Positions 6,683 to 18,083 of a stretch of DNA of 33,047 nucleotides are shown here, piece by piece (within the stretch, counting starts at the first letter, position 1; every line of letters starts with the position of its first letter). Under the pieces are notes generated by a model. It ran no database searches and was not told the origin of the DNA. It saw only the letters and a list, made by a program, of their open reading frames with translations. This DNA comes from Azonexus sp. GTDB lineage: Bacteria > Pseudomonadota > Gammaproteobacteria > Burkholderiales > Rhodocyclaceae. The stretch covers positions 1 through 33,047 of the forward strand of contig JAGOAU010000021.1 of NCBI GenBank assembly GCA_017983755.1, given 5' to 3'. The position numbers and the translations under genes are program-made.

Positions 6683-6833
6683 CCGGCTTTCGGTGGCAGG
6701 CACAGGGCGCCGATGCAGTTGGACCATTGCTGTGACATCCGGATAATGCCAACCCACAGGGAAACGGGAGCGTATCGCCAGGTAATCTTCGCCTGGAGCG
6801 ATGATGACCGTTACAAAAAAAGATCAGCAGTTT

Positions 6834-6852
6834 TATATCAGATTGATATACT
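6834..6852 (+). promoter_or_regulatory. Palindromic operator overlapping the -10 of higBA
   Basis: A perfect inverted repeat TATATCA-GAT-TGATATA (6834-6850, arms of 7, spacer of 3), overlapping TATACT (6847-6852), a near-consensus -10. This is the layout expected for autorepression by the HigA antitoxin or HigBA complex. A weaker alternative promoter is TTACAA (6811-6816), 17 bases, TATATC (6834-6839). Confidence 0.6.
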
Positions 6853-6859
6853 TTAAAGC

Positions 6860-7162
6860 ATGCACATCATTTCACTGAAAATGTTGCGGGAGTTCTGGGA
6901 AAAGCACCCAGAGGCTGAGCAAGTGTTGAAGGATTGGCATTCAGTTCTGGAGAAATCCACTGCAAAGGATTTCAACGAACTGAAAAACACATTCAACTCG
7001 GCCGACTATGTCGCTCCCTACACAGTGTTTGATGTGGGCGGTAACAACTATCGCGTTATTGTTGTCGTGCAGTACAAGTTCAAGAAGGTCTATGTCCGCG
7101 AAGTGATGACACATCGGGAATACGACAACTGGAACAAGCTATACAGAAAAGGAAAGGTGTAA
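6860..7162 (+). CDS. higB: HigB-type mRNA interferase toxin
   Basis: A 100-residue RelE-superfamily toxin of the HigB_toxin type, expected to cut mRNA at the ribosome. Recognisable features are the N-terminal LREFWEKHPEAEQVLKDWH, the central FNELKNTFNSADYV, a strand-rich core NNYRVIVVVQYKFKKVYVREV, and the terminal MTHREYDNWNK signature. The ATG lies only 7 bases past the candidate -10 (TATACT) and no Shine-Dalgarno sequence precedes it, so the message may be leaderless. The toxin gene precedes the antitoxin gene, as usual for hig loci. The GC content is clearly below that of menD, suggesting transfer. Confidence 0.92.
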   Translation: MHIISLKMLREFWEKHPEAEQVLKDWHSVLEKSTAKDFNELKNTFNSADYVAPYTVFDVGGNNYRVIVVVQYKFKKVYVREVMTHREYDNWNKLYRKGKV

Positions 7163-7164
7163 TC

Positions 7165-7596
7165 ATGCAGGCCGCGCAAAGCCGTTTTGACATCCGTGCA
7201 ATCCAGACCTCCTGGGCCAAGCTCGATGCAATGGCTCATATTCGTCCGATCCATGACGAAGCAGGCTATGACCGCATGGTTGCTCTCATGAATGACCTGC
7301 TTGATGTGGTTGGCGAAAATGAGGACCACCAGCTGGCTGGCCTTCTGGAGCTTGTCGGCGATCTGGTTTCTAACTATGAGCGCGAACACTTCACCATCGA
7401 AGCTTCCGAACCAAAGGACGCCCTGCGTTTCCTGATTGAGGCCAAAGGCCTGAAACAGGACGATCTCTCGGATATCGTCGCGCAAGGCAACCTGTCCAAT
7501 ATCCTTGCCGGTCGCCGCAAGATATCTGCAACGCTGGCCGGAAAGCTCGGCGAGTTCTTTGGTGTCAGCCCCGCACTGTTCATTCCCAAGGCTTGA
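7165..7596 (+). CDS. higA: HigA-type antitoxin with C-terminal helix-turn-helix
   Basis: A 143-residue partner of HigB. The N-terminal half (about 1-85) is an alpha-helical region rich in acidic residues. The C-terminal part (about 85-140) is an XRE-like helix-turn-helix: ALRFLIEAKGLKQDDLSDIVAQ, then NLSNILAGRRKISATLAGKLGEFFGVSPALF. It should neutralise HigB and repress the operon through the palindrome at 6834-6850. It starts 2 bases after the higB stop, with a ribosome site GGAAAGG at 7151-7157 inside the end of higB. A strong terminator follows, so the pair is a self-contained transcription unit. Confidence 0.92.
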   Translation: MQAAQSRFDIRAIQTSWAKLDAMAHIRPIHDEAGYDRMVALMNDLLDVVGENEDHQLAGLLELVGDLVSNYEREHFTIEASEPKDALRFLIEAKGLKQDDLSDIVAQGNLSNILAGRRKISATLAGKLGEFFGVSPALFIPKA

Positions 7597-7622
7597 CCAT
7601 TCGAGTCACCGCATTCTTCTGG

Positions 7623-7646
7623 ACCCGCTTCGGCGGGTTTTGTTTT
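7623..7646 (+). terminator. Intrinsic terminator after higA
   Basis: Stem ACCCGC (7623-7628) with GCGGGT (7633-7638) around a TTCG tetraloop, followed by TTTTGTTTT (7638-7646). It lies 26 bases past the higA stop and separates higBA from the large gene at 7686. Confidence 0.85.
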
Positions 7647-7685
7647 CTGCTGAAATTTAAGTCCGCCTCATCACAGCACTGAGCG

Positions 7686-10600
7686 ATGCCACAGTTCGAC
7701 ACTGTCACCTATTACGATACCCATGCTGAGGCTTTTTTCTCGGATACACAGGGCGTCGACATGGCACCGCTCCATCAGCGTTTTCTCGCCCAGTTGCCGG
7801 CTGGCGCGCATATTCTCGATGCGGGTTGCGGCTCGGGGCGGGACAGCAAGGCCTTTCATCAGCAGGGCTACCGCGTCACGGCATTCGACGCCTCCGCGAA
7901 ACTTGTGGCCCTGGCGCAAGCGCATACCGGCTTGCCGATTGCCCGGCGCAGCTTTGCCGACGTTCACGAAATCGCCACCTACGACGGCATCTGGGCCTGC
8001 GCCAGCCTGCTTCACCTGCCGGAAAACCAGCTCGCGGAAACTCTGCAACGCCTCTGGTACGCGCTCAAACCCGACGGCATCCTTTATCTCAGCTTCAAGT
8101 ACGGTGAAGGCGAACGCAAACACAACGGTAGGCATTTCACCGACGCTACTGAAAGCCGGCTGGCAGGCTGGTTAGCTGATCTTCCGGGCATCGCCGCGAC
8201 GGAAATCTGGATCACCGCTGACCAGCGCCCCGGCCGGGACGAGCAGTGGTTGAACGCGCTGATTCGTCGTACCCCGGCATTCATTGACACACCAAAGCTG
8301 GTTATCGGTGGCCGCGACCACCCATTTCTGCCCCAACTCTCACATGCCATTGCGCATGCCGATGAAATCGACATGACTGTCGCCTTCATCAAATCCAGCG
8401 GTCTGCGGTTGCTGATGCCTGATTTTCAGGAAGCGATGAACCGGGCAACGCCGAACAATCCGGTTCGGCTTCGTATCCTGACCAGTGATTACCTCGACGT
8501 CACCGACCCCGAGGCCCTGCGTCTGTTGATCCTGCTGCAATCCCAAGGTGCCCGGATCAAGGTATTCGAATCGAACGAACAAGGTTTTCACATGAAAGCC
8601 TACCTGTTCGCGCACTTCCGGAATGGACAACTTCACGGCACCGCCTTCATCGGTTCCAGCAATATCAGCCGCCAGGCGCTGACCGATGGTCTGGAGTGGA
8701 ATTACCGCATCGACTACCCCGGCGATGAGGGATTTCTGGAAGCGCGCAAACAATTCGAAATCCTGTTTGCTAATCCGCGTAGCGTTGAACTGAGCGATGA
8801 GTGGATCAACGCGTATGAGGCCAGGCGCAAACCAATGCCCCTGCCAATCTCGCTGAGCAACAAGGACGACGATCCTCCGCCAGAACCGACAGAGATTCAG
8901 CGGGATGCCCTCGCGGCCTTGCGCGAAACACGCTTCCGGGGGTTTCAGCGTGGTTTGGTCGTCCTCGCCACCGGCCTTGGCAAAACCTGGCTAGCGGCTT
9001 TCGATACCCGGCAAACGCAGGCCGCTCGCATCCTGTTTGTTGCCCATCGTGAGGAAATTCTGACGCAGGCAGCAACAACCTTCCTGCGCATCCGCCCGCA
9101 GGCCCGCATCGGTTTTTATACCGGTCGCCAACGCGACGGCGAAGTCGACATCCTCTGCGCTTCGATCCAGACCCTGGGCCGCGTCCAGCATCTGCAGCAG
9201 TTCGTCGCAACGCATTTTGATTACCTCGTCGTCGATGAATTCCACCACGCCGCTGCACCAATGTACCGGCGCCTGCTCCAGCACTTCACGCCACGCTTTC
9301 TGCTTGGCCTTACGGCGACCCCGGACCGTAGCGACCAATCTGACATCCTCGCCCTTTGCGACGACAATCTGGTTTTTGAGCGCAATCTATTCGCTGGTAT
9401 CAACGGCGGCTTCCTGGCCCCTTTCCATTATTTCGGCATCCTCGACGAGTCGGTCGACTACCGTGAAATCCCTTGGCGTAACGGTCAATTCGACCCGGAA
9501 ACCCTGGCCAACAAACTCGCCACACGCGCTCGGGCCAACCATGCCCTACGTGAATGGCAAACCAGGGCGCAGACCCGGACGCTAGCCTTCTGTGTTTCAC
9601 GCCGCCACGCCGATTTCATGGCTGAACAGTTTCGCGCTGCAGGCATCGCCGCCGACGCAGTCTATGCGGGTTCAAATTTGTCACGCGGCGAGGCATTGCA
9701 ACAACTGGCCGACGAACGACTGCAGGTGATCTTCTCCGTAGACCTGTTCAACGAAGGCGTCGATTTGCCGGCCATCGACACCGTGATGATGCTGCGCCCG
9801 ACCGAATCCAAAATTCTTTTCCTGCAGCAACTCGGGCGTGGTCTCCGTCATGCCGATGGGAAAAATCAACTGGTCGTCCTGGATTTCATCGCTAATCACA
9901 AATCCTTCTTGCACAAACCGCAAGCTCTCGCTGGATTATCTGGCCAGCTGCGCGAGTTGGGAGATTTCGCCCGCAAACTCGAAAAGAGCACCTGGCCCCT
10001 TCCCGAAGGTTGTTTCATCAATTACGACCTGCGTTTCATCGACTTTCTCAAGTCGCTCGACAGCAATGGTCTAGCCGAGGATTACACCACCCTTCGCGAG
10101 GTACTGGGACGCCGCCCGACCCTGACTGAATTTTATCGAGCAGGTACGGCGCCAACTCGTATCCGCCAGCAGTACGGCAGTTGGTTCGGGATGGTCGAGG
10201 CGATGGGCGATCTTGGTGAAGCGGATGAAGCTTTAGTCGATCGCTATCGGAGTTTCTTCGTTGAACTGGAAACTACTGCGATGACGCGTAGTTTCAAGAT
10301 GGTGCTTCTGGAAGCCTTCCAGAATCTGCAAGGGTGGACCAGGGCTGTTGCCTTGTCAGCCTTGGCACAGACATCCTGGACATTGCTGCACCGTCGTCCG
10401 CCCCTGCTCGCCGATCTTCCTGAAGACATTCGCCAACTGCACAGCGAATCCATCGAATGGCAACGTTACTGGCAAAAGAACCCGGTCAGTGCCTGGACTG
10501 GTGGAAATAGCAACAATGAAAAACCTCGTTTTTTCACCGTCGACCGTGACAGCTTCAAAACAACGCTCGTCGTCCCGCGCGAACGTGCAGAACAGTTCGC

Positions 10601-11549
10601 CGATCTGGTTCAGGAATTGATCGACTTCCGTTTTGCCACTTACGACGCCCGCAAAGCCGCTACTGGAGAAACAGCGCAGGTTCTTGCCTTCCCCACCCCC
10701 AAAGATCGACTGCCGCTTGAACTTCCTTATTTCGAAGACTTGCGCATCGCCTGTGGCCATTTCCGCACCAGTACCGCCGAAGCTCTGGAACATCGCTCGC
10801 TGCCGATCTCATACGGTCAACTCGACCCGGCAAGACATTTCATCGCTCGGGCAGTTGGTAACTCGATGAATGGTGGCAAGCACCCGATTCGTGATGGCGA
10901 CTTCTTGTTACTGGAACTGCTTACCGCACACAATGCCGGCTCCATCAGCGGACACATCGTCGCCATCGAACGCCAGGACGAATACGGCGATAACCAGTAT
11001 TTATTGCGTGTCGTCACCAAACAGGGGCCAGGCCATTACATCCTGAAAGCCAATAATCCGGACTACGAAGACTTGCCGGCTGATAACACCATGCGAACAT
11101 TGGCCCGTCTCAAGCAGGTTATTGACCCGCTCGATCTGGCCATCGGGCAGGCATTTATGCGCGAGGAAATCCCCTCGCTATTTGGAGAAGACTACAACCC
11201 GGGAAGCTGGAACAGTGGCCATGTCGTTCTGAACCAGCAAAACGCACATGTACTTCTGGTCACCTTGAACAAGCAGGGAAAAGCAGAAGATCATCGATAC
11301 ACTGATTACTGGATCGACGAAAATACCTTTCACTGGCAATCACAGAACACCACCAACCCGACAAGCAAGCGCGGACGTGAAGTCATCGAGCACAAGAAGA
11401 ACGGACGAAAAATCCACCTGTTCGTTAGAGAAAACAAACTCTCTGCGGGGAAAGCGGCTCCCTTTCTTTACTTCGGCCCAGTTGATTACATCAGCCATCA
11501 AGGCAGCGAACCCATGAGCATCGCGTTTGCGCTCGAAAACAAAATATAA
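7686..11549 (+). CDS. Fused methyltransferase / PLD nuclease / SF2 helicase / DUF3427 protein with S24-like insert
   Basis: A single 1287-residue polypeptide. Residues ~1-190 form a class I SAM methyltransferase: motif I DAGCGSG (45-51). No NPPY-type DNA-amino-methylase motif is seen; the later SFKYGEGER region resembles small-molecule-type methyltransferases. Residues ~205-380 are a PLD-family domain with H302-x-K304 and GSSN (323-326), a single HKD half-site. Residues ~400-740 are an SF2 helicase: Walker A ATGLGKT (428-434), DEFHH (517-521), GLTATP (541-546), motif VI QLGRGLR (715-721). The rest matches DUF3427, with a terminal TFHWQSQ...IHLFVRE block, interrupted at ~1050-1140 by an S24/LexA-like domain ([10 protein letters not shown]1060). 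PLD-helicase-DUF3427 proteins are known and frequent near defence genes; the methyltransferase fusion is the unusual part. Target and activity are unknown; an anti-phage or DNA-processing role is inference. Weak ribosome site. Confidence 0.88.
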
Positions 11550-11562
11550 CTATTTGAATTCA

Positions 11563-14160
11563 ATGAACAAGAAAAAATCAGCTCTCCCTGTAGATCCGGA
11601 GTTTGCGGGCCATACTCCCATGATGGTCCAGTACTTAAAACTAAAAAATCAGCATAAAAACACATTGCTGTTTTATAGAATGGGCGATTTCTACGAGCTG
11701 TTTTACGAGGATGCGGAAAAGGCGGCCCGCCTGCTCGACATTACGCTGACCACGCGCGGGCAATCGGCGGGCGTGCCGATCAAGATGGCCGGCGTGCCCT
11801 TCCATTCGCTGGAGCCCTACCTCGCCAAGCTGGTCAAGGCCGGCGAATCGGCGGTGATCTGCGAGCAGATCGGCGATCCGGCGACCAGCAAGGGGCCGGT
11901 CGAGCGTGCTGTGGCGCGCATCGTCACGCCGGGCACACTCACCGATGCGGCGCTGATCGACGACAAGCAGGACATCTGGCTGCTGGCGATCACCACCACG
12001 CGCAATACTGCCGGGCTGGCGCGGCTGAACCTGGCCAGCGGCGAATTCATACTCACCGAAATTCCCGTCGAGCAGATTCAGGCGACGCTGGAACGCATTC
12101 GCCCCGCCGAAATCCTACATCCCGAATCCTGGTCGCCGGATTTTGGCCGCGAAGCGGCGCGCACCCGCCAGCCGGACTGGTATTTCGAGTTCGATTCCGC
12201 CCGGCGCTTGCTATGCGAGCAATTTCAGGTCGCTTCGCTCGCCGGTTTCGGTGCCGAGGGCTTGAAGCCGGCCATCGCCGCCGCCGGGGCGCTGCTGCAA
12301 TACGCGCAGGCCACGCAATCCGGCAAATTACCACATTTGCGGGCGTTGACCGTGGAGCTCGAAGGCGCCTATCTCGGCCTCGACCTCGCCACGCGGCGCA
12401 ATCTGGAATTGACTGAAACGCTGCGCGGACAGCCATCGCCGACGCTTTTCTCGCTGCTCGACCATTGCGTGACCAGTATGGGCTCGCGCCTGTTGCGCCA
12501 CGCCTTGCACCACCCGCTGCGCGAGCGCGAGATTCCCGCCGCCCGCCATGGCGCCGTCGAGGCCTTGCTCGACGACTACGGGCGGATGGCCGGCGAGGTG
12601 CGGCGCGAACTCAAGGGCATCGCCGACATCGAGCGCATCGCCGGGCGCATCGCGCTGCGCAATGCCCGACCGCGCGACCTTGCCAGCCTGCGTGAATCGC
12701 TGGCTCGGCTGGCCGCCTTGCGCGCCCCGCTGGCAGGCAGCAGTGCGCCGCTGCTCGGTGTGCTGGAAAGCGATCTGGAAACGCCGACGACGGCGCTCGA
12801 TCTGCTGGTTCGCGCCATCGCCGCCGAACCCGCCGCGCAGATTCGCGACGGCGGCGCCATCGCGCCCGGCTACGATGCCGACCTGGACGAACTGCGCTCG
12901 CTCAACGACAACTGCGGCGCCTACCTGGTCGACATGGAGGTCCGCGAGCGCGAGCGCACCGGGATCAGCAGCCTCAAGGTCGAATACAACAAGGTGCATG
13001 GCTTCTACATCGAGGTCACGCATGCCCACACCGACAAGATTCCCGACGACTACCGCCGCCGGCAGACGCTGAAAAACGCCGAACGCTACATCACGCCCGA
13101 ACTGAAGGCCTTCGAGGACAAGGCGCTGTCGGCGCAGGAACGCTCGCTGGCCCGCGAAAAACTGCTCTACGAGGCCATTCTGGACGAACTGCTGCCGGCC
13201 GTGCCGACCCTGCAAATCATCGCCCGCGCTGTCGCCCGGCTCGACCTGCTGGCCGGCTTTGCCGACACCGCCTTGAAGCGCAACTGGAGCAAGCCGGAAT
13301 TTGCCCCGGAAACCGGGTTGACCGTAACCGGTGGCCGCCACCCGGTGGTCGAGGGCGAAATGGCCAACAGCGCCGAAACCTTCATCGCCAACGACTGCCT
13401 GCTCGCCGAGAACCGCCGCCTGCTGCTGATCACCGGCCCCAACATGGGCGGCAAATCGACCTACATGCGCCAGGTGGCGCTGATCGCCCTGCTCGCCCAC
13501 ATCGGCAGCTACGTGCCGGCCGACCGCTGCGTGCTCGGCCCGCTCGACCGCATCTTCACCCGCATCGGTGCTTCCGACGACCTCGCCTCCGGGCGCTCGA
13601 CCTTCATGGTCGAGATGACCGAGGCCGCCGCCATCCTGCACCACGCGACGGTGAACAGCCTGGTGCTGATGGACGAGATCGGGCGCGGTACCTCGACCTT
13701 CGACGGCATGGCGCTGGCCTTTGCCATCCTGCGCCACCTGATCGACAAAAACCGCTGCCTGACGCTGTTCGCCACGCATTACTTCGAGCTGACCCGGCTC
13801 GCGCACGAATACTCCGAACTGGCCAACGTACATCTCGACGCCGTCGAGCATAACGACCGCATCGTCTTCCTGCACGCCGTCGAGGAAGGCCCGGCCAACC
13901 AGAGCTACGGGATCCAGGTAGCGGCGCTGGCCGGCATCCCGAACGCCGTCGTGCGCGCCGCCCGCAAGCAGTTGCGCGAGTTCGAGCAGCGGACTGCGGT
14001 CGACCCGCTGCAACCCGATCTTTTCGCCCAGGGCGAACCGGAACTACCTGAATCCGAGCCGCATCCGGCGCTGGAGCAACTCGCCACCATCGACCCGGAC
14101 AGCCTGACGCCGCGCGCGGCGCTCGAAGCCCTCTACACGCTGAAAGGCCTGCTCAGGTGA
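11563..14160 (+). CDS. mutS: DNA mismatch repair protein MutS
   Basis: Mismatch-recognition ATPase of the MutSL pathway. The 865-residue length is normal. Motifs: [11 protein letters not shown], the mismatch-wedging F43-Y-E45 in RMGDFYELF, Walker [10 protein letters not shown] (K631), Walker [10 protein letters not shown] (D704, E705), STFDG, the THYFELT signature, and the C-terminal helix [14 protein letters not shown]. The start at 11563 fits the family; a TTG-led extension from 11527 adds unrelated residues. No Shine-Dalgarno sequence is visible before the ATG. The first ~140 bases are about 40% GC by hand count and use AAA, AGA, CTA and TTA codons. From about 11710 the gene switches sharply to ~63% GC or more. 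The gene reads intact and all catalytic motifs are present. Confidence 0.97.
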
Positions 14161-15938: not shown

Positions 15939-18083
15939 ATGACAATCTACTACATCAAATCCGGATCCACGGCCGAGGAAATTGATCTTGGATCAGCGAT
16001 CGGGGCGGATGCCAGCGGAAGCATTTTCGCGGTTACAGGGCCCAAGCAATTCAGCGACAGCATCGCGAAAATCTATCGTGATGCAGGTTTTTGTCATGCC
16101 GCGAAGCTTCAGTCTCTGATCGACAATGCACCTTCGAAAGTCTGGTTCGAGGCTTCTCCCGGATCACGCCACCCTCAGTTCGCTTGGCCACAAGCCATCA
16201 TCCATGCGCGAGACAAGGTTTCGGATGAATTGGCGCCAGTTGGTTACTTGATGCCCAAATTCGATTCGCACGCAGCGGTTACATTGGACGCGTATTTCCA
16301 TCAAAAACTTGGCGAAATAAACAACCTCACCCCTGAAAGCCTCTCGCTGCAACGTCGACTGGATGTAGCGATCGGTCTTTGCGGATTGCTCGCAGACCTT
16401 CATTCAAAACACATCTACTGCATCGACTTCAACCCAAAAAATATCCTCATACAGCGAGCGCATGGCCTCGTAACTTTTCAAAATTGCGATGGCTATTCCG
16501 TCGTCGCAAAAAATGGCACGCCCTATCCTGCCGGGCAATATTCAAAAGGTTACGTCGCACCGGAGGCGCTAAAAAGTGGCACCAAGCCAGGTGATCTCGG
16601 CGAGGCGCAAGACTGCTTTGCGTTGGCAGTCGTGCTTTTTCAGATTTTCAATTACGGCATCTACCCATATTCAGGCGTGATCCGGCCAGGCCATCCCCAT
16701 GCAGATGACGCCGACGACCGGGCCAAGGCTGGTTATTACCCATACGGACTGAATCAGAACCCGGCTATCGCTCCGCTGCCGCAATCGGTGCATGACCTCC
16801 TGCCAATGAAGCTACGTCAGCTATTTGATCGCGCTTTCGTTGCGGGAAACACCAGACCAACGTCCAAGGAATGGGCCATTGCCCTGTCCTCGCTCAAGAA
16901 AGCCATCAGATGGGCGCCTTGCCCTGCCTATCCGAACGATGCCGAGCATATTCACTTCGATGGCTTGCCCTGCAGCAAGTGCGAACTCGACCGCCGCATC
17001 AAAGTGCAGAAAGGTATTCGGGCGCCAGCAGCGATTGTCGAGGCCAAAGTCGAAACATCACAAGCAAGCGTCAGCCCGCCACCGGCAAGCAACACCCCGG
17101 ATAGCCCGCCTGCCCCCGCAAAGCCCGGCGGCCGGAGAAGTGAATTTCTCAAATATCTGGCTGCCGGCGCCGTCGTGTTTGCTCTACTTTATCTGTTCGG
17201 CAACGACGATCCGCCCCAGCAAACCTCCCGGCAAGCGCCTGTACAAGCGCCTGCACAAGCACCTCAGCAATCGGCCGTCCAGATACCGAGTATTCCGAGC
17301 GTGGCTATCGTTGAAAGGATACCGGACGTTGGTGGCGAAGAGCGGAAGCCCTTGTCGGTCGGCGAAATTTACTGGTGTATCGCCAAAAATCACCGGATTG
17401 ACGTCATCAACGAAATTTTAGGCAGAAACCAGGTAACCGCCCCGCCCTTATTGCAGGCATCGATTGTCGAATACAAGGCTCGCTGCGAAAAATATCGATA
17501 TGACCAGGCGGATCTGGCAAAGGCGCAGGACTACTTCGCAACTCGCGAAGCGGGTTTGGCCGATACGGCTGTTACCGAGGCGCATCAATTGGTGGCGGAT
17601 GCGCAACGTGTTGCGCCCACACAGAATTCAAGCAACGTCGCAGTTACGCGAACGCTGCCGCAAAAACCAAGTGTGACAGCGAACACTTCAAGCAGCCGGC
17701 TGGAACCGGAAACGCCGCGCAAGCCGCCTGAGCGTCGCCAAGCCTCGGATCAGACCACGACCTACGAGCAAGCGCGCCCCGCCGTAATCGAGGCACGTCC
17801 GGCAAGTCTGTCGCTTCTGAGTGCAATCACCCGGGGCGACAGGGCAAGTGTCGAGTACTACCTTGACAAGGGAACGTCGCCGAATGCACCGCTCTCGAAC
17901 GGTGCAACGCCTCTCAAGACAGCCGTCGTGTCGCACAACGTCGGAGTTGCCGAGGTCCTGCTAAGACGTGGCGCAGACGTCAATCAACGCGACAGCACAG
18001 GCAGAACGGCACTGCAATGGGCCAGACTGGGTAATAGTGAAAGCATGGTCGCGATGCTGCTGCGTTATGGAGCGACAGAGTAA
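15939..18083 (+). CDS. Kinase-like / Cys-cluster / transmembrane / ankyrin-repeat protein
   Basis: A 714-residue protein. Residues ~10-320 resemble a Ser/Thr protein kinase: a probable ATP lysine K44 in SIAKIYRD, a catalytic loop YCIDFNPKN (D163, N168), and GYVAPEA (204-210). At the DFG position the sequence reads N182-C-D184-G, so the metal-binding Asp may be replaced. C328, C345 and C348 form a possible metal-binding cluster, as in kinases of the TerY-associated type. A Pro-rich linker leads to a membrane helix (~403-422), then a Pro/Gln-rich linker, a Cys-containing helical region (~475-530) that I cannot name, and 2-3 ankyrin repeats (~625-714). The kinase is thus cytoplasmic and the ankyrin part probably periplasmic (inference). 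GC is lower than the neighbours. No clear ribosome site or promoter; no matching phosphatase gene nearby. Confidence 0.75.
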   Translation: MTIYYIKSGSTAEEIDLGSAIGADASGSIFAVTGPKQFSDSIAKIYRDAGFCHAAKLQSLIDNAPSKVWFEASPGSRHPQFAWPQAIIHARDKVSDELAPVGYLMPKFDSHAAVTLDAYFHQKLGEINNLTPESLSLQRRLDVAIGLCGLLADLHSKHIYCIDFNPKNILIQRAHGLVTFQNCDGYSVVAKNGTPYPAGQYSKGYVAPEALKSGTKPGDLGEAQDCFALAVVLFQIFNYGIYPYSGVIRPGHPHADDADDRAKAGYYPYGLNQNPAIAPLPQSVHDLLPMKLRQLFDRAFVAGNTRPTSKEWAIALSSLKKAIRWAPCPAYPNDAEHIHFDGLPCSKCELDRRIKVQKGIRAPAAIVEAKVETSQASVSPPPASNTPDSPPAPAKPGGRRSEFLKYLAAGAVVFALLYLFGNDDPPQQTSRQAPVQAPAQAPQQSAVQIPSIPSVAIVERIPDVGGEERKPLSVGEIYWCIAKNHRIDVINEILGRNQVTAPPLLQASIVEYKARCEKYRYDQADLAKAQDYFATREAGLADTAVTEAHQLVADAQRVAPTQNSSNVAVTRTLPQKPSVTANTSSSRLEPETPRKPPERRQASDQTTTYEQARPAVIEARPASLSLLSAITRGDRASVEYYLDKGTSPNAPLSNGATPLKTAVVSHNVGVAEVLLRRGADVNQRDSTGRTALQWARLGNSESMVAMLLRYGATE

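Follow-up and report, generated by a model that had tools for sequence, protein, structure and literature searches.

The window analysed here, a stretch of 33,047 nucleotides from Azonexus sp. (contig JAGOAU010000021.1 of GenBank assembly GCA_017983755.1), encodes at positions 7686-11549 of the forward strand a multidomain protein which we judge, with somewhat better than even confidence, to be an accessory SauUSI-like restriction enzyme equipped with a RecA-type control domain and a methyltransferase (MT); its part in defence, the link to RecA, cleavage of the control domain and the role of the MT are what we infer. The gene is one uninterrupted open reading frame (ORF) with an ATG start, 1287 codons for amino acids and no internal stop, as seen from its translation. 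Translation and a motif search recovered this ORF and all the motifs listed in a first-pass annotation of the window at the places given there (DAGCGSG at residues 45-51, HMK at 302-304, GSSN at 323-326, ATGLGKT at 428-434, DEFH at 517-520, TATP at 543-546 and QQLGRGLR at 714-721). In Pfam the following domains score, in this order, above their cut-offs: Methyltransf_25 (43-131), PLDc_2 (226-357), ResIII (401-548), Helicase_C (625-722), Peptidase_S24 (1020-1134; 33.3 bits against a cut-off of 23.3) and DUF3427 (1123-1287). Thus, the MT, phospholipase D (PLD) nuclease, superfamily 2 (SF2) helicase and DUF3427 parts named in the first-pass annotation are present, and the most unusual part, a LexA/UmuD-like S24 domain, had been overlooked. 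The proposed single-chain MT-nuclease-helicase is likewise real, being supported by Pfam and by an MT match in 57 of 62 related loci of other genomes, on which ground an assembly or frame artefact was dismissed. The five related loci without an MT match (L030, L042, L059, L061 and L062) each cover just part of the protein. The features of the gene are as follows:

7686..8270, + strand: N-terminal class I S-adenosylmethionine (SAM) methyltransferase domain, family MT-A, residues 1-195 (Pfam, structure model, Foldseek, invariant residues)
8283..8840, + strand: PLD-family nuclease domain, residues 200-385, with H302xK304 and GSSN323-326 (PLDc_2; the alignment with SauUSI 7clg begins at residue 202)
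8853..9965, + strand: SF2 helicase-like motor, residues 390-760 (Walker A 428-434, DEFH 517, TATP 543, motif VI 714-721)
9993..10685, + strand: region at the position of the SauUSI coupler, residues 770-1000 (weak HNH_repeat match of 20.6 bits, below the cut-off of 26)
10713..11135, + strand: S24 domain of the LexA/UmuD/lambda CI type, residues 1010-1150 (Pfam; UmuD 8gmt_B profile; Foldseek 2hnf, 8gmu, LexA, UmuD)
10752..10757, + strand: Cys1023-Gly1024, the position of the LexA/UmuD scissile bond (aligned with Ala-Gly of the organism's own LexA and with Cys-Gly of UmuD)
10863..10865, + strand: Ser1060, the S24 nucleophile position (aligned with Ser of the own LexA)
11007..11009, + strand: Arg1108, the position of the S24 general-base Lys (alignment with the own LexA)
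11133..11546, + strand: DUF3427, the SRA-fold target-recognition domain, residues 1150-1287 (Pfam, 7clg, Foldseek, profile search)

The core of the protein is a SauUSI-type combination of PLD nuclease, SF2 motor and SRA-fold reader, a class of type IV restriction enzymes that is already known, so it is not a new nuclease. The PADLOC type IV model mREase_IV scores 408 bits, with the best stretch at residues 217-778, and the solved SauUSI chain (7clg) scores 310 bits over residues 202-818 and, weakly, 1154-1275. A structure model of residues 985-1287 (predicted local distance difference test, pLDDT, 83.6) retrieved SauUSI and the SRA domains of SUVH proteins and MspJI in Foldseek searches. The features that define membership among SauUSI-type enzymes are present, namely, the PLD HxK and GSSN motifs, intact SF2 motor motifs and a C-terminal SRA-fold DUF3427 reader; among relatives possessing both MT and S24, the HxK/GSSN motif is kept in 69 of 70 and Walker A, DExH and TATP in 70 of 70. 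Passages of the SauUSI structure paper (PMC7913695) on domain architecture assign residues 618-805 to the coupler and 806-953 to the reader, which has the SRA fold. Nuclease, motor, coupler and reader follow in identical order in the two proteins, whereas the protein studied here has an additional N-terminal MT and an S24 domain placed between coupler and reader.

The base-binding pocket of the reader appears only partly preserved. In the SauUSI DNA model, as described in the relevant passages of PMC7913695, Asp858 and Trp868 touch the flipped 5-methylcytosine, Tyr831 contacts its methyl group and Met829 fills the gap. In our profile alignment, counted by hand, these residues correspond to Asp1207, Trp1217, His1179 and Ser1177, i.e. 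in this one alignment Asp and Trp are kept, Met is replaced by Ser and Tyr by His. The reader Asp, Trp and His were each counted by eye in 16 of the 16 reader-bearing rows of alignment A2, and in L148, which lies outside A2, Glu replaces the pocket Asp. Because of the Tyr831 to His and Met829 to Ser replacements, specificity for 5-methylcytosine may not hold; judging from these residues, a flipped cytosine-type base is a plausible target, and the preferred modification may differ from that of SauUSI.

On the evidence of co-occurrence among homologous sequences, the MT (METHYLTRANSFERASE) is a true partner of the nuclease. We collected 132 distinct PLD-SF2 proteins (148 before removal of duplicates) and scored the MT as present when a tblastn match at 1e-8 fell inside the same ORF or no more than 700 bases away; the loci obtained by genome search have flanks of only about 1.5 kb. 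The MT accompanies 70 S24-bearing proteins and is missing from three (L030, L042 and L148), with the locus edge reached in three more, whereas among proteins without S24 it is found in 11 and missing from 42, again with three locus edges. Hence, for readable flanks, the MT is present in 70 of 73 cases with S24 vs 11 of 53 without; Fisher's test gives p = 1.4e-19, which is overstated, since the S24 proteins are largely one clade. The 11 MT-positive proteins without S24 comprise fused, broken or incomplete ones (L069, L045, L081, L082, L041 and L043), short clade members (L053, L054, L055 and L057) and L087; the broken gene L043 was counted twice, once in each row of the cross-table.

The form of this partnership varies. 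Among the 70 relatives with S24 and MT, 44 have the MT fused, 22 have an adjacent MT-A gene and four an adjacent MT-B gene, the latter family being about 26-31% identical to MT-A. The description as a 'single-gene' system is therefore apt for one clade and fails for the 26 of 70 in which the MT is a separate gene. A quick-search tree that covers 126 of the 132 proteins (six fragments omitted) shows three changes between the fused and the split state. L031 nests within the fused clade; it lacks a fused MT and carries a separate MT-B gene directly upstream, and it appears to have swapped its fused MT-A for MT-B. In L138, another member of this clade, MT-A is a gene of its own. Further MT-B genes lie beside L177, L179 and L181, and in L182 an MT-A gene is found upstream and an MT-B gene, on the opposite strand, downstream. 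As a separate observation, a second PLD-SF2-DUF3427 gene, about 35-41% identical and without an S24 match, directly follows the MT and PLD-SF2-S24 genes in L044, L048, L049, L056, L060 and L138, forming tandem SauUSI paralogues.

The MT itself looks like an active SAM enzyme, as far as fold and conserved residues can tell. Its structure model (pLDDT 95.8) is most similar in Foldseek to RPA2492 (PDB 3e23), a structural-genomics methyltransferase solved with SAM and called uncharacterized, with a template modelling score (TM) of 0.91 across the whole MT and 34% sequence identity. RPA2492 differs in being a standalone chain of 211 residues and in having WAHACLLH in place of WACASLLH. In 47 aligned sequences, Y10, F33, G47, G49, R52, D53, W103, H110, G140, R149 and W188 are invariant. 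Among the 50 best of 1917 fold matches, RPA2492 is followed mostly by small-molecule and peptide methyltransferases, and none is named as a DNA methyltransferase. PADLOC 2.0 holds no model covering the MT; only a partial match to mad2 was obtained (56.7 bits over residues 34-141).

Neither the amino-methyltransferase motif IV, (D/N/S)PP(Y/F), nor the PC motif of 5-methylcytosine (m5C) enzymes is present after strand 4, where the sequence reads WACASLLH. This bears out the first-pass argument that the lack of an NPPY-type motif speaks against a classical DNA amino-methylase, and that candidate was rejected. An m5C enzyme acting through Cys105 was rejected as well: Cys105 occurs in 90 of 91 MT-A sequences, but MT-B, which has Ser, still replaces MT-A. 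To judge from the modelled fold and its neighbours, we expect the substrate of the MT to be a nucleotide, a protein or a metabolite and not DNA bases recognised in their sequence context, with nucleic acid also possible.

These data bear on two other accounts of the MT. Single-chain enzymes with nuclease, SF2 motor, MT and reader exist, for example LlaBIII. The protein could be such a restriction-modification enzyme, working like types ISP and IIG, with a shared C-terminal reader that picks the sites at which the MT marks host DNA and a nuclease that attacks DNA lacking these methyl marks; the frequent association of MT and nuclease, fused in one clade, a weak database match of LlaBIII in the motor and the resemblance of MT-HNH gene pairs to restriction-modification pairs speak in its favour. 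We consider this quite unlikely given the absence of the NPPY-type motif and of any named DNA methyltransferase among the 50 best fold matches, the small size of the MT (195 residues), which itself lacks a reader, with none evident in many of its nuclease partners, and the origin of motor and reader in a modification-dependent family. The type ISP enzymes LlaBIII and LlaGI share with our protein the weakly matching motor and combine nuclease, SF2 motor and MT in one chain, but their MT is a DNA N6 methyltransferase of another type, their domain order differs and they are not known to have an S24. The other account takes the MT as an inert SAM-binding gate or sensor that makes the nuclease dependent on SAM. 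Some restriction enzymes are known to be gated by SAM, and the absence of a DNA methyltransferase motif would fit; nevertheless, H110, K138, R149, W188 and N190, which lie beyond the SAM site, are conserved as strongly as the site itself, and the MT is often a separate protein, which makes an inert gate improbable.

The S24 domain is the second addition to the SauUSI plan. The best Foldseek matches of residues 1010-1150 are lambda CI (2hnf, 2ho0 and 8gmu, the last being a CI-RecA complex) and LexA, with UmuD lower. UmuD (8gmt_B) was also matched by profile with an E-value of 1.7e-4, placing ACGHF over CGF and GNSM over GDSM of UmuD. When aligned with LexA of the same genome, Cys-Gly falls on Ala-Gly, Ser1060 on Ser and Arg1108 on Lys of the TVKRL motif. 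Thus, the LexA/CI fold, the nucleophile Ser and the scissile Cys-Gly are present and in the same order as in LexA, UmuD and lambda CI, whereas the general-base Lys is absent and the domain is attached to a nuclease rather than to a repressor or a polymerase subunit. Around the Cys-Gly site the pLDDT falls below 50 (model residues 39-41 and 43-47), as expected of a mobile loop. Among 77 distinct S24 domains, 76 of which cover the last position, Cys is found in 76 of 77, Gly and Ser in 77 of 77 each and Arg at the general-base position in 75 of 76, with Lys only in L059; many of these domains are close kin, and the counts are not independent. Lys also occupies this position in two further actinobacterial relatives, L148 and L149.

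These actinobacterial sisters (L147, identical to L059, L148 and L149) have an N-terminal HIT hydrolase domain where our protein has the MT (recognised by eye in L059 and through Pfam in the other two), and their S24 domains carry both Ser and Lys. The N-termini of alphaproteobacterial relatives resemble degenerate HIT domains by eye, but Pfam found no HIT in the two that were scanned (L086 and L089), and the candidate was dropped.

The general-base substitution leads to an alternative that concerns the self-cleavage step alone: the S24-like domain may be catalytically dead and serve only as a docking or reading module, e.g. by keeping the nuclease at RecA filaments or by giving the coupler its shape. 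We give this a substantial weight, a little under even, considering that 75 of 76 domains have Arg in place of Lys while the fold and Ser persist. Against it, the scissile Cys-Gly is conserved together with Ser, though a pure docking domain need not keep Cys-Gly, and the sister HIT-linked proteins have Lys. In the literature listed on a Lys156 to Arg change in LexA, nothing usable was found. As read from the sequences, Arg at this position suggests that any cutting would be slow or conditional, or else that docking is all the domain does.

For the protein as a SauUSI-like enzyme under RecA-type control, the following course of events may be proposed. By analogy with SauUSI, the SRA-fold reader (residues 1150-1287) would dock on DNA, probably flipping a modified cytosine-type base, after which the SF2 motor would translocate and a dimeric PLD site would cut. 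The partner of S24 domains elsewhere is the RecA-ssDNA filament (ssDNA, single-stranded DNA). By binding such filaments, the S24 domain inserted between motor and reader could tie the enzyme to the DNA-damage state of the cell. Slow self-cleavage at Cys1023-Gly1024 would perhaps part motor and nuclease from the reader and halt targeted restriction upon damage to host DNA, amounting to a built-in restriction alleviation. In some relatives S24 is the last domain and cleavage would only shed S24 itself, which fits removal of a restraint; S24 cleavage may thus act either as a shut-off or as release from restraint, and we do not choose between the two. Most likely, the MT would keep the nuclease safe or licensed by modifying the nuclease itself, a nucleotide or some other host molecule. 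Restriction enzymes need restraint whenever the DNA of the host is endangered. In the case of EcoKI, according to PMC11109961, a separate protease, ClpXP, provides it.

To see with which proteins the MT is associated outside the PLD-SF2 family, we searched with the MT only. Among 299 phylum genomes, nine had matches at E <= 1e-30, including the genome studied here, and in seven of the eight others a nuclease is fused or adjacent to the MT: PLD-SF2-S24 in G372 (fused) and G360, HNH in G456, G476 and G272, HNH-S24 in G340 (L134), and an SF2 protein with a truncated S24 in G414 (L133). The N-terminus of L133 resembles a PD-(D/E)XK nuclease by eye; Pfam named none. In the eighth genome, G463 (MT at 38% identity), no nuclease was recognised beside the MT. 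The MT was found in 27 plasmid records, 12 of which were viewed; among the 11 viewed with at least 40% identity, a nuclease is adjacent or fused in seven (H56, a short fused gene, H58, H61, H62, H63, H66 and H70), and at 33% identity, in H77, no nuclease adjoins. In the viral collection the MT occurs in 16 loci, 13 of which were inspected (L207-L209 lie outside), and a nuclease partner was found in five: HNH in L194, L195 and L197, HNH-S24 in L196 and PLD-SF2 in L200. A second HNH-S24 protein, L193, with Cys-Gly, Ser and Arg, lies on the same contig as L196. Overall, S24 is borne by three of the HNH and other SF2 partners of the MT and is missing from the majority. An S24 profile search of 369 class genomes retrieved seven, i.e. 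our own, five with MT-A or MT-B fused or adjacent (L177, L178, L179, L180 and L181) and L176, which is cut by the contig end.

One could go further and regard MT and S24 as a portable control cassette exchanged among unrelated nucleases of the PLD-SF2, another SF2 and the HNH kind, in which S24 with its Ser-Arg site would read RecA filaments or cut itself slowly, switching the nuclease, and the MT would set the nuclease or protect against it; we hold this broader proposal to be unlikely as a whole. Separately, contigs L202-L206 of the viral collection (four of 152-193 kb and one of 64 kb) encode a standalone MT relative, 35-38% identical, with no recognised nuclease adjoining; it is possibly a phage counter-measure. 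In L132 (5737-11160), an HNH-MT gene pair adjoins a match to Mokosh MkoC (1538 bits).

The gene is accessory, and its distribution is patchy. It was matched at E <= 1e-60 in 24 of 199 family genomes, including its own, and five of the 24 (G016, G036, G164, G167 and G192) match only via SauUSI-like paralogues of 35-38% identity. No match was obtained at 1e-60 in the four other members of the genus, all of which have mutS. At 1e-50, 21 of 398 phylum genomes match, the own genome included and paralogues again among them. One genus-mate, G062, represents an empty site, with the aligned ends of menD and mutS 108 bases apart compared with 5.0 kb in the window; roughly 1 kb separates the two in G112 and G177, and for G147 the 10.5 kb that were read showed no menD. 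The gene is probably mobile. In L004 the block 6817-11533 of the window, including a toxin-antitoxin pair, is common at 77%, and mutS lies 1.7 kb further. Upstream of the gene lie:

6860..7596, + strand: HigB-like toxin gene and a helix-turn-helix (HTH) gene, the likely antitoxin (profile scans)
7621..7640, + strand: terminator-like hairpin in the gap between the toxin-antitoxin pair and the MT-nuclease gene (consensus match, putative)

Downstream, the stop codon ends at 11549 and the likely ATG of mutS, at 11563, follows 13 bases on without overlap; a longer variant of the mutS ORF begins at TTG 11527. This closeness, and the presence of mutS near L001, L004 and L061 too, could point to a DNA-repair or housekeeping enzyme acting with MutS. 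That role is, however, highly improbable and was set aside on the evidence of the empty site: all four genus-mates have mutS without a match to the gene, one of them with menD directly before mutS, and only these three of 62 related loci had a mutS-family neighbour within the fetched DNA, with a patchy distribution overall. Thus, the possibility raised in the first-pass annotation that homologues are conserved housekeeping genes in core positions is not what we found. A remnant comprising only the S24 and reader parts of the gene occurs in Nitrosomonas halophila (L061, 8079-8906), again just before mutS. A LexA-regulated promoter was also considered and rejected: a CTGT-N8-ACAG match with one mismatch lies at 7679-7694, over the start codon, and the window has eight such matches vs 6.8 expected.

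Plasmids carry some of the relatives, and some have defence genes next to them, in agreement with the defence context suggested earlier. We tallied 148 flanking proteins from 27 loci, without a control set, after two of 150 had been removed as pieces of the core; L177, L179, L181, L182 and the window lie outside this tally. Defence neighbours at some loci include ABC-three-component genes, CRISPR I-Fv and Mokosh MkoC (1538 bits), and the Septu, AbiEii and SoFic models match one or two proteins each among those scanned. Elsewhere in the window, positions 15939-18083 encode a protein of 714 residues with a sub-threshold protein-kinase match, C-terminal ankyrin repeats and weak matches to defence-associated kinases.

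Several observations weigh against the interpretation as a SauUSI-like enzyme controlled by S24 and MT. In the reader, the methyl-contacting Tyr831 of SauUSI is His and Met829 is Ser, and the reader is absent from many relatives. Lys to Arg at the S24 general base speaks against normal self-cleavage; S24 is not constant either, four MT-bearing clade members lacking it (L053, L054, L055 and L057), and a single clade may account for most of the S24-MT correlation seen among PLD-SF2 proteins. The RNA methyltransferases METTL6 and Bud23 appear lower among the 50 best of the 1917 MT fold matches. No nuclease lies directly beside the MT in four of 11 plasmid records of at least 40% identity (H57, H64, H69 and H75), and seven of the 13 inspected viral-collection loci are without a nuclease partner by the BLAST set (the MT reading frame of L199 is open, and its neighbours stand outside the count). 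S24 is carried by only two of 13 HNH partners (L134 and L193/L196), which also slightly lowers the odds of the portable cassette. Finally, many ordinary genes (dnaA, gyrB, dehydrogenases and mutS) are among the first 25 families of the uncontrolled neighbour tally.

We found no description of the MT-S24-nuclease combination in the open-access full texts searched. The retrieved passages of PMC7159879 and PMC3874153 discuss DUF3427 and SauUSI and mention neither the MT nor the S24 addition; those of PMC7641849 deal with EVE-PLD-helicase fusions and with an operon whose MT belongs to a different family, and those of PMC12839542 cite SauUSI, with no S24. A figure legend in PMC13092281 names validated systems with an MTase, which may overlap with the present combination. 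The enzyme class is known; the addition of MT and S24 to it, and the spread of the MT over different nucleases, appeared in none of the literature searches. The MT family, pairing with different nucleases and sometimes with S24, offers a search handle for systems unnamed in the defence library used. If the proposed control holds true, a restriction enzyme with an internal LexA/UmuD-like domain would connect the DNA-damage response with restriction directly and within one protein.

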